This document shows positions 57,528-60,155 of a stretch of DNA of 64,000 nt, piece by piece. The stretch lies in the NCBI GenBank assembly GCA_902586125.1, contig CACIGI010000004.1, positions 1 to 64,000 of the forward strand, written 5' to 3'. Below the pieces are notes generated by a model. It did not search any database. It had not been told where the DNA came from and saw only the letters and a list, made by a program, of their open reading frames with translations. This DNA comes from an uncultured Pelagibacteraceae bacterium. Lineage in GTDB: Bacteria > Pseudomonadota > Alphaproteobacteria > Pelagibacterales > Pelagibacteraceae. How positions within the stretch are numbered: position 1 is the stretch's first letter; each line of letters opens with the position of its first letter. The position numbers and the translations under genes are program-made.

Positions 57528-57604
57528 TGGTAGCGGGAAGTGGGATCGAACCACTGACCTCGGGCTTATGAGTCCCGCGCTCTAACCAACTGAGCTACCC
57601 CGCC
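57528..57604 (-). tRNA. tRNA-Met (anticodon CAU, elongator type)
   Basis: 77 nt including an encoded CCA (57530-57528). Acceptor stem GGCGGGG pairs with TCCCGCT with G-U at both ends. The D arm contains AGCTCAGTTGGTTAGAGC, the anticodon loop is CTCATAA, and the T arm is AGTGG-TTCGATC-CCACT. The first pair is G-U rather than the unpaired C-A of initiator tRNA, so I call it elongator methionine; tRNA-Ile2 (lysidine-modified CAU) is the alternative. The last pair of the anticodon stem (31-39) is an A-G mismatch. Confidence 0.93.
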
Positions 57605-57696: not shown

Positions 57697-57903
57697 TTAA
57701 AAAATGATTAGACCAAATAAAATCAACCCTGTTGAAGCAGCTGCTGAGAAATATAATTTTTTTCTATTTTCATTTTTTTTATTAACTGCAATTCTATTTA
57801 AAAGAACGTTTATGTTGCTACTTTTTGATTGAGTTGATGGCGGATCTTTTTCAAGGTATCTGGCTATAAGCTTTTCTTTGACGTTAATACCTGAATTTTT
57901 CAT
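57697..57903 (-). CDS. small tail-anchored membrane protein, unknown
   Basis: 68 residues. A basic cytoplasmic part ('INVKEKLIARYLEKDPPS' then 'NINVLLNRIAVNKKNENRKK') is followed by one hydrophobic C-terminal helix ('LYFSAAASTGLILFGLIIF'). No known family. The region 'NIN-x-L-x-x-R-I ... RKKLYF' lines up with 'DIN-x-L-x-x-K-L ... LKKNIF' in the next small gene, so the two look like distant relatives. It lies between tRNA-Met and that gene, 40 bases apart, on the same strand. Confidence 0.62.
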   Translation of the reverse strand: MKNSGINVKEKLIARYLEKDPPSTQSKSSNINVLLNRIAVNKKNENRKKLYFSAAASTGLILFGLIIF

Positions 57904-57943: not shown

Positions 57944-58165
57944 TTAGAAAGAAAGATAAACTCCAAAGGCTCCCGCACCAATTATCAGCAACGATAAAAT
58001 GAAAATATTTTTTTTGAGTTCCTTCGCTTCTGTTTCCTCTAGCTTTGACTTCAGGATATTTATATCAACTCTCTTCTTTAATGTTTTTAAAGGCTTTTCA
58101 GCAACAGCAACATCATTTGGGGTCTCGATGCTAGTATGTGTCTCTGCAAAGCCTTTATTACTCAT
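57944..58165 (-). CDS. small tail-anchored membrane protein, unknown
   Basis: 73 residues: a polar N-terminal part with many Thr/Lys/Glu, then 'RVDINILKSKLEETEAKELKKN' predicted helical, and a single C-terminal membrane helix ('IFILSLLIIGAGAFGVYLSF'). No family recognised. It shares layout and a short motif with the neighbouring small gene. Gene status rests on the sensible composition and the repeated architecture; the start ATG lies 45 bases from the repeated operator of the divergent regulator. Confidence 0.6.
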   Translation of the reverse strand: MSNKGFAETHTSIETPNDVAVAEKPLKTLKKRVDINILKSKLEETEAKELKKNIFILSLLIIGAGAFGVYLSF

Positions 58166-58210
58166 AGCAGGATTAGTACATTAAAATATCTATCGAACAA
58201 TTTTACTGAA

Positions 58211-58262
58211 GTTCAATTTGGGTCACTATTAGATTGACATGTGTTCAATTTGGGTCAATATT
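58211..58262 (+). promoter_or_regulatory. direct-repeat operator bracketing the promoter of the HTH gene
   Basis: The 15-mer GTTCAATTTGGGTCA occurs at 58211-58225 and 58243-58257; including the next five bases the match is 19 of 20. The start-to-start distance is 32 bp (three turns). A perfect -35 box TTGACA (58234-58239) lies between the copies, and AATATT at a 17-base spacing (58257-58262) falls in the second copy, so transcription would start near 58269, ten bases before the ATG. A protein bound to both repeats would block this promoter. Confidence 0.7.
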
Positions 58263-58278
58263 CTCAAATTCAAATTTT

Positions 58279-59259
58279 ATGAGTTTAGAACAAATCGATT
58301 TCAGTAAAACCTTAACCGACGATCAGGTTTATGAAAGTATAATGAATAACTACTCTGATTTAGCTAATGAGTGGATATCACATCAATGGAATTGGATTAA
58401 CAACGTGTACTGGGCGTTTAATGATCATTACAAATACATGATTATAATTTCATTAATAGAAAAAACACTTCAATTTTATGATCAAATGAATGTTCAGCAA
58501 TCGTATGAAGAATATTATTCTAAATCATTTGTTCAAATAGAAAAATTTAGTATTACTGAATTATGTGAGAAATTAGATCTACCAAAAGAAACTATAAGGA
58601 GAAAGGTTTTAGAACTTGAAAAAGAAGGCGTCATTAAAAGAAATAAAAAAAAGATTATAATTGATGGTAAAGCTTTTGCTTTTGTAAAACCTCAAAACCA
58701 AATTAAACTTTCATCAAAATATATCTATTTAGTGGCTGAAGCTTTATATAGAGAAAAGCACTTTTCAAAAAAAATAGATGTTAAGTTAATTGAAAATTTA
58801 ATCAAAAAAAAATTTACATTATGTTGGCGATGGTTTTATCGAATGCAAATACCGTTGGTAATTGGGTATCACAAATTCATGCAAGATCTAAGCACGTTTC
58901 ATGTCTGGGGAACTATTTGTATGAACCAATCATTGAATGTCACAAAAAATTTGAAAAATTCAGATACAAAAAAATTACCATTAGATCATGGAGCTGCGAG
59001 TAAAATACTTATTGATAATGTTGGCTCAACTTCAGGAATAAGCGCAATGTCTATTTCAGACATGACATTAATACCAAGAGCAACAGTAATAAGAAAATGC
59101 AAATACTTAATAAAAAATGATTTAATAAAACTTAATGAGAAAAAACAATACGTTTTATCCTCATTTAATTTTAAGAAAATTTTACCTTACCAAACTGAAG
59201 CTTTTAAGTTTAAAGCTAAATTTATACGTAAAGTTCTTAATCTTCTTGTAATTTCATAA
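58279..59259 (+). CDS. regulator with two winged-helix-like segments
   Basis: 326 residues from the ATG at 58279. An upstream in-frame TTG is actually the -35 box, so the shorter start is preferred. The N-terminal 85 residues are Trp/Tyr-rich and helical ('NEWISHQWNWINNVYWAFNDHYKYM'). A winged helix-turn-helix follows ('FSITELCEKLDLPKETIRRKVLELEKEGVIKRNKKKIII', described, about 95-135). A second, similar segment is at the C-terminus ('MSISDMTLIPRATVIRKCKYLIKNDLIKLNEKKQYVL', described, about 255-292), aligning at P-x-x-T-x-x-RK ... L-x-K-x-x-(V/L)IK-x-N-x-KK. No family name is recognised. The repeated operator at its promoter suggests self-repression. Confidence 0.72.
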   Translation: MSLEQIDFSKTLTDDQVYESIMNNYSDLANEWISHQWNWINNVYWAFNDHYKYMIIISLIEKTLQFYDQMNVQQSYEEYYSKSFVQIEKFSITELCEKLDLPKETIRRKVLELEKEGVIKRNKKKIIIDGKAFAFVKPQNQIKLSSKYIYLVAEALYREKHFSKKIDVKLIENLIKKKFTLCWRWFYRMQIPLVIGYHKFMQDLSTFHVWGTICMNQSLNVTKNLKNSDTKKLPLDHGAASKILIDNVGSTSGISAMSISDMTLIPRATVIRKCKYLIKNDLIKLNEKKQYVLSSFNFKKILPYQTEAFKFKAKFIRKVLNLLVIS

Positions 59260-59303: not shown

Positions 59304-60155
59304 ATGGAAATAGTAACAAAAATAGCACCTATCATACTCGCATTAATAATGTTGGGTTTAGGTTTGGGATTAAAGATTGATGATTTTACGAGAATATTAA
59401 AAACTCCAAAGGATTTTTTTGTAGGTTTTTTTTCTCAATTAATTATTCTTCCATTAGTTGCTTACTTATTAATTATTATTTTAAAAGTACCACCTGAAAT
59501 AGCAATTGGAGTTATGATTATCGCTGCTGCACCAGGTGGAGTTACATCTAATATATTAACAAAATTTGCTAATGGAGATGTTGCTTTATCTATTTCTTTA
59601 ACAGCTGTAATCAGTTTAATTTCTATTATTACCGTTCCTCTTATAATTTTTACATCTGCTGATTTATTTGGAATTACTGATATTTCTCAAAATATTTCAA
59701 TGACTGGTATAGCGCTAAAAATGTTTTTGGTTGTAACTGTTCCGGTAATCTTAGGGATGATTATAAGAAAATTTGCTGAAAATTTTGTAAATTCGAAAAT
59801 TCAAATATTTGAAAAACTCAACATAATATTATTTGTTATTTTTTTTATAGCTGCATTTTATGAAGAAAGAGAGAGTTTTATAGATTTTCTAATGCAAGCA
59901 GGTTTCATTACTTTTATTCTAAATATAACAATGATGATTGTGGCTTATTACCTTGGTAAAACTTTTGCCTCAGGAATAAAACAACAAAAATGTATTGCTT
60001 TAGAATGTGGATTACAAAATGGTACTTTAGCAATATTTGTTTCTACACAAATATTCGGTACAGATATAGTCTACATAACTCCAACAGCTGCATATGCTTT
60101 GATTATGTACATCACTGGTTTTATATTTGTTTTTCTTTTAAAAAATAAAGTTTAA
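59304..60155 (+). CDS. bile acid:sodium symporter (BASS) family transporter
   Basis: 283-residue membrane protein with about nine to ten helices. Family marks are 'MLGLGLGLKIDDFTRILKTPKDFFVGFFSQ' near the N-terminus, 'IAAAPGGVTSNILTKFANGDVALSISLTAV' near residues 73-102, a sodium-site region, and 'ALECGLQNGTLAIFVSTQIFG' near 232-252. BASS proteins take up organic anions such as bile acids, pyruvate, pantoate or 2-keto acids with sodium; the substrate is not readable. AAAGGGG before the ATG is a good ribosome-binding site. It is convergent, with a 4-base overlap, with the dimethylglycine dehydrogenase gene. Confidence 0.9.
   Translation: MEIVTKIAPIILALIMLGLGLGLKIDDFTRILKTPKDFFVGFFSQLIILPLVAYLLIIILKVPPEIAIGVMIIAAAPGGVTSNILTKFANGDVALSISLTAVISLISIITVPLIIFTSADLFGITDISQNISMTGIALKMFLVVTVPVILGMIIRKFAENFVNSKIQIFEKLNIILFVIFFIAAFYEERESFIDFLMQAGFITFILNITMMIVAYYLGKTFASGIKQQKCIALECGLQNGTLAIFVSTQIFGTDIVYITPTAAYALIMYITGFIFVFLLKNKV

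Follow-up and report, generated by a model that had tools for sequence, protein, structure and literature searches.

A conserved pair of direct repeats as predicted operators between a duplicated winged-helix regulator gene and a small-membrane-protein gene in Pelagibacter

The locus and its repeat pair

The stretch of Pelagibacteraceae DNA analyzed here (64 kb of a Pelagibacter (SAR11) contig; hereafter the window) contains, at 58279..59259 on the plus strand, a gene for a 326-residue protein that is recognizable as a regulator from Pfam searches, alignment of its two halves, and an AlphaFold2 (AF2) model. Its start codon is the ATG at 58279, from which the orthologs align. Divergent from it is a conserved partner gene (57944..58165, minus strand) encoding a 73-residue protein with a single transmembrane (TM) segment and the motif RVDINILKSKL, followed in the same direction by a tandem paralog of 68 residues (57697..57903, minus strand). 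Each of the small proteins shows a single apparent membrane segment toward its C-terminal end, and a Pfam search with them gave no convincing family. A tRNA gene (57531-57604, minus strand), whose anticodon looks by eye like CAT, lies beside them. Downstream of the regulator gene is a gene of the SBF family (bile acid:Na+ symporter-like; 59304..60155, plus strand; Pfam SBF, 9.7e-38), which is the usual third neighbor.

Between the two divergent genes the 15-mer GTTCAATTTGGGTCA occurs exactly at 58211-58225 (copy 1) and at 58243-58257 (copy 2), both on the plus strand and 32 bp apart. The original prediction had described two 20-bp direct repeats at this spacing, and this description holds: the copies of GTTCAATTTGGGTCA are identical over 15 nt and the repeat extends to 20 nt at 95% identity. 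Such repeats were said to be rare in the window, and indeed no other exact 15-mer recurs in these 64 kb at a distance of 15-100 bp; first-order Markov simulations lead one to expect a mean of 0.07 such close-spaced repeats per window. These simulations, together with a reversed-pattern control over 201 genomes, rule out a chance origin of the pair. The possibility of an RNA element was likewise dropped, as an Rfam search at the repeats gave no family, just the nearby tRNA. A search of the genome for the 15-mer had been proposed as a way to find a regulon. No wide regulon emerged in the window's own genome: GTTCAATTTGGGTCA has no further match with 0-1 mismatches in the 977-kb genome bin, where the box is no commoner than the reversed-pattern control.

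The predicted -35 of the regulator gene, TTGACA (58234..58239, plus strand), lies between the two copies as had been claimed, and the predicted -10, AATATT (58257..58262, plus strand), starts on the last base of copy 2, so that the earlier placement of the -10 in the second copy is right insofar as the two overlap. The expectation of an almost leaderless transcript also fits, the predicted leader being about 9-11 nt before ATG 58279. With their 17-bp spacer these hexamers match the consensus at 10 of 12 positions. Shuffling the region produces a match of this quality about once per shuffle, so the promoter call rests on conservation in the clade and not on match quality.

The divergent gene also has a recurrent predicted promoter, the elements of which were read by eye from the aligned sequences. 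Across loci it consists of TTGnnn, a spacer of 16-17 bp, and a TTTAAT-like -10 preceded by TGn, with an ATG 6-7 nt later. The corresponding elements in the window are TTGTTC (58195..58200, minus strand) and ACTAAT with TGT before it (58172..58177, minus strand), about 6 nt upstream of the ATG. Since the start codon follows the predicted -10 so closely, the small-membrane-protein mRNA is probably leaderless. Copy 1 starts 44-46 bp from the start codon of this gene in most loci; in the window its center is about 52 bp from that codon, on the side of the divergent promoter, and copy 2 falls within the regulator's core promoter.

Distribution and rearrangement of the boxes

Absence of the repeat upstream of orthologs had been named beforehand as one of two observations that would refute the proposal, and the proposal survived this check. 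In a set of 109 full-length, non-redundant orthologs (<90% identical), a degenerate pair of boxes GTYCANNNTGGGT, allowing at most 3 mismatches in total, lies upstream of about 84 at a spacing of 31-32 bp, down to about 30% protein identity. The search itself returned 83 (77 at 32 bp, 6 at 31 bp), and it overlooked one further ortholog (L098) solely on account of a long open frame. When spacings of 16-59 bp were permitted, almost exclusively 31 and 32 bp were recovered. Alignment of the loci yields the core TGTYCAWWWTGGGTY, and within CANNNTG of copy 1 the C, T and G vary hardly or not at all. Nine boxes carry A at the second position, and in each of them the third is C, which hints at a palindrome within the box.

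The pair (at most 1 mismatch) is found in 94 of 201 Pelagibacter genomes, once in each apart from a single genome with two, and the reversed-pattern control pair in none. All 94 carry both the regulator and the small membrane protein. Orthologs of the regulator are present in 149 of the 201 genomes; in a count of co-occurrence, to be read with the non-independence of the genomes and the incompleteness of many of them in mind, 140 had both regulator and partner, 2 the regulator only, 11 the partner only, and 48 neither. The flanks of 199 regulator loci contain 279 exact boxes upstream of the regulator (2 for the reversed control), 8 shortly after it, where the partner gene starts (reversed 0), 5 upstream of SBF (reversed 0), and 3 elsewhere (reversed 8). 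The SBF gene has a box of its own in four loci. Most of this comparison lies within one genus and the loci share ancestry; two genomes from a different genus of this family (g9) have boxes at both genes, reversed at the regulator. The boxes are thus conserved, are exclusive to this gene pair, and segregate with both of its members.

The relation of the boxes to the promoter differs between clades. In that of the window TTGACA begins 23 bp past the start of copy 1, and copy 2 is mostly followed by the ATG after about 22 nt; in the other main clade TTGAC begins 12 bp past the start of copy 1, with the ATG mostly about 8-14 nt after. The -35 is thus shifted by about 11 bp, nearer to copy 1, with boxes and spacing unchanged. 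That the -35 moves by about one helical turn while the boxes stay argues for an operator and not a core-promoter element.

Natural rearrangements separate the two copies. In 13 loci the small-membrane-protein gene is downstream of, and convergent to, the regulator gene. Most of these have a box at the start of the membrane-protein gene, sometimes with a second, degenerate copy, and 12 of the 13 regulators have no box at their own promoter, which makes autoregulation dispensable. Membrane-protein genes parted from the regulator retain a box near their -35, and the regulators that left their partner (L178, L187, L190, L303, L172) have kept one over their own promoter, as a moved regulator gene usually does; in L178 and L190 there are two boxes about 20 bp apart, not 32. 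Five genomes have the regulator and partner unlinked, with a recognizable box at either gene. Three of these (G188, G082, G178) have the genes on different contigs with other genes around each; in G104 and G151 the distance is about 37 kb and 35 kb, respectively. In G151, G082 and G178 one of the two boxes deviates at a single position. The genome G145 was left out of these cases because the contig with the partner gene stops right after the box, and a box common to G188, G104 and G151 was discarded because it is inside conserved coding sequence. Only 5 changes of the head-to-head arrangement fall on the tree, and a sign test on the independent rearrangements had too few independent pairs for significance. 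Since the boxes stay with both genes when these are separated, they are almost certainly operators, of a small shared regulon; by the same comparison copy 1 is the one that goes with the small-membrane-protein gene and copy 2 the one that goes with the regulator. The operator reading of the original prediction therefore stands, with its scope widened: the boxes appear to serve also the divergent gene, which it did not mention.

Several features of the surroundings were recorded. The relocated regulators of L178, L187 and L190 follow, at a distance of a few hundred bases, a phosphatase-like gene (assigned by eye to the SpoIIE type) and a conserved ORF of about 95 aa. In G188 and G104 (L379, L381) the separated partner and an ammonium-transporter/SpoIIE fusion gene face each other. 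Extra copies of the small-membrane-protein gene adjoin a GCV_T/DAO oxidoreductase gene at L378 and L391-L393, with no box at their start.

In the cultured strain HTCC1062 the regulator ortholog is SAR11_1248, its partner is SAR11_1249, and SAR11_0047 is a divergent paralog. These names were assigned via the coordinates of intergenic regions in PMC2704228, where the regions of SAR11_1248/SAR11_1249 and SAR11_0047 appear with no explanation. In PMC2217521, SAR11_1248 is 'winged helix dna-binding', SAR11_0047 is 'lexa/cap', and the SAR11_0047 region is given as hypervariable. The passages searched in these two papers contain no operator, duplication, or partner linkage for SAR11_1248, SAR11_1249 or SAR11_0047. 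SAR11_0047 sits between an autotransporter gene and the symporter gene SAR11_0048, and variant boxes GAYCAAAATGGGT occur at SAR11_0047 itself and at SBF. Those at the HTCC1062 SBF gene are 21 bp apart over the promoter, with TTGACA inside the pair. Two further exact boxes in this genome, one between a pilin gene and a STAS-domain gene (L376, ~66430) and the other before a PilM-like gene (L377, ~75862), are leads only; both are within 18 kb of SAR11_0047, and the reversed control gave none in HTCC1062. Exact boxes were also seen in genome G224, before two DUF4347 adhesin genes and a gene for a large putative surface protein with an apparent signal peptide (L384, L385, L386), the first two within 13 kb of a divergent regulator homolog.

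The regulator protein and a model for its action

The two similar winged-helix segments noted originally are confirmed at residues ~76-129 and ~237-293 and are homologous to each other. Because the two halves of the protein align by hhalign over 145 columns (E 1.4e-15), the duplication comprises a whole helical/winged-helix module of about 160 aa and not just the winged helix. The AlphaFold2 model has high confidence (pLDDT 90, pTM 0.89). The most conserved residues are located in both recognition helices; among the invariant ones are E104, R107, R108 and K109 of the first and P266, R267, R272 and K273 of the second. The two helices are only distantly alike. The first winged helix alone passes Pfam gathering scores (HTH_24, 25.2 with a cut-off of 21.9; HTH_DeoR, 24.5 with a cut-off of 21), and the MarR models fall below theirs on the window protein (MarR_2, 22.8 bits vs 27; MarR, 13.6 vs 24.6). 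No named regulator family of NCBIfam exceeded its curated cut-off (best Sta1, 22 bits vs 80), and a PDB sequence search gave weak winged-helix matches only (best AspA, E 0.0028). The best fold matches are CRP-type and MarR-type winged helices at Z 6-8, scores too low for the family to be named from the fold; MepR is among the best for the whole model (Z 7.3, 118 aligned residues), with values of Z <8 not discriminating. The protein may resemble a single-chain MarR-like dimer, and it matches no named family.

Shorter proteins of about 160-210 aa, related to the regulator through one module, occur in this genus and in others; those at L023 and L025 and the matches in genera g5 and g7 are possible relatives of an unduplicated ancestor. 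In genus g8 (L285-L291, L293, L294) a regulator homolog is followed by SBF, apparently in one operon, with neither box nor small membrane protein.

We consider the following model probable as a whole. Each repeat would be a separate operator box, GTYCA-N3-TGGGT, for the protein of the adjacent gene, which is the likely binder. This protein would work as a covalent pseudo-dimer, one box per molecule, a reading favored by the occurrence of single boxes at several promoters and left unproved by the boxes themselves, which are weakly palindromic (column-permutation p 0.15, so that a palindrome in each box is suggestive only). A molecule at copy 2 would sit in the core promoter of the regulator gene and is likely to repress it. 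Autorepression had been the original proposal: its operator and the autoregulation are well supported by the orthologs and the relocated regulators, and the repressing sign is what we infer. A molecule at copy 1, just upstream of the divergent -35, would control the small-membrane-protein gene; that it activates rather than represses is a guess that we rate slightly better than even. The constant spacing of 32 bp, three helical turns, would place both molecules on one face of the DNA, where they could help each other to bind and so couple the two genes.

The most serious competitor, which we regard as a real possibility and the lesser one, keeps the same operator and binder and has both divergent promoters repressed, so that derepression would yield the small membrane protein as output. 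Repression to both sides is common among divergent regulators, the boxes lie in the regulator core promoter, and the box variants of HTCC1062 SBF cover a promoter with TTGACA inside the pair. Copy 1, however, is outside the -35 and -10 of the partner gene, about 52 bp from the start codon, where activators more usually bind.

Two other explanations seem improbable to us, and about equally so. One, put forward in the original prediction, has a single chain bridging both repeats with one winged helix on each. Two homologous winged helices and two boxes of the same orientation at constant spacing are what it would call for. It is made unlikely by the boxes that occur alone, at separated partner genes and at some relocated regulators, that is, at both kinds of promoter; moreover the recognition helices are only distantly alike, the spacing is about 20 bp in L178 and L190 and 21 bp at HTCC1062 SBF, and the protein looks like a fused dimer. 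The other assigns the boxes to a different regulator that always co-occurs with the gene pair, the double winged-helix protein being a bystander. Local conservation alone cannot name the binder, and independent rearrangements are few; against this, all 94 genomes with the pair carry the regulator gene, there is no excess of boxes elsewhere in the window's own genome, boxes occur at unlinked regulator and partner genes, and the divergent paralog is paired with a variant box. Finally, a reading of the repeat as part of the core promoter or of an mRNA leader, as the overlap of copy 2 with the promoter and its conserved position near the start codon might suggest, is hardly tenable given the ~11-bp difference in -35 offset between clades, the occurrence of boxes in either orientation and upstream of the partner's -35, and the lack of any Rfam family here.

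Returning to the model of two boxes with one pseudo-dimer on each, a speculative extension, to which we give a small chance, is that the regulator makes up a closed switch together with the small membrane protein, which would be tail-anchored and would signal the state of the envelope, for example by tethering the regulator there. Surface structures would, in some lineages, be under the control of the same regulator family. This last part comes from the boxes of HTCC1062 at the pilin/STAS and PilM-like genes and those of G224 at the DUF4347 and surface-protein genes.

Relation to known systems

SAR11 bacteria, the most abundant heterotrophs of the surface sea, have been described as having few transcriptional regulators (PMC13198564). 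The present analysis adds a regulator family present in about 70% of the Pelagibacter genomes studied (often incomplete ones), with a predicted box, two defined target promoters and a partner gene. Natural rearrangements set apart what each of the two boxes does, which brings the circuit within reach of assays that need just one protein and some short DNA probes.

The kind of element is a known one, the autoregulated local operator: a conserved site lies over the regulator's own promoter in orthologs, except for 12 of the 13 loci of the rearranged clade. What we did not find in the literature searched are the duplicated regulator family, its box, the proposed shared control of a small-membrane-protein gene, and the natural dissection of the two sites.

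Three groups of proteins invite comparison. Members of the MarR family such as MepR and MexR autoregulate locally, often beside a divergent target gene. Helical and winged-helix modules are common to them and the present regulator, and MepR is among its best whole-model fold matches; here, however, two modules are fused in one chain, the boxes are weakly palindromic, and Pfam MarR_2 is below its cut-off. Plasmid replication initiators of the RepE/Pi type also have two winged helices in one chain and bind directly repeated iterons. They share with our case this arrangement of protein and sites, and differ in that the genes here are chromosomal and there are only two boxes, at promoters; at the locus there is no replication-origin context or array of several iterons: the contig is chromosomal, and the divergent promoter with its two boxes has metabolic genes on either side. 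In LysR-type divergent promoters, one shared operator region serves a regulator that represses itself and controls the divergent gene. The protein architecture here is unrelated and the sites are two fixed boxes of 13-15 bp, but the proposed logic, a self-repressing regulator and a divergent gene governed from a common operator region, is the same.
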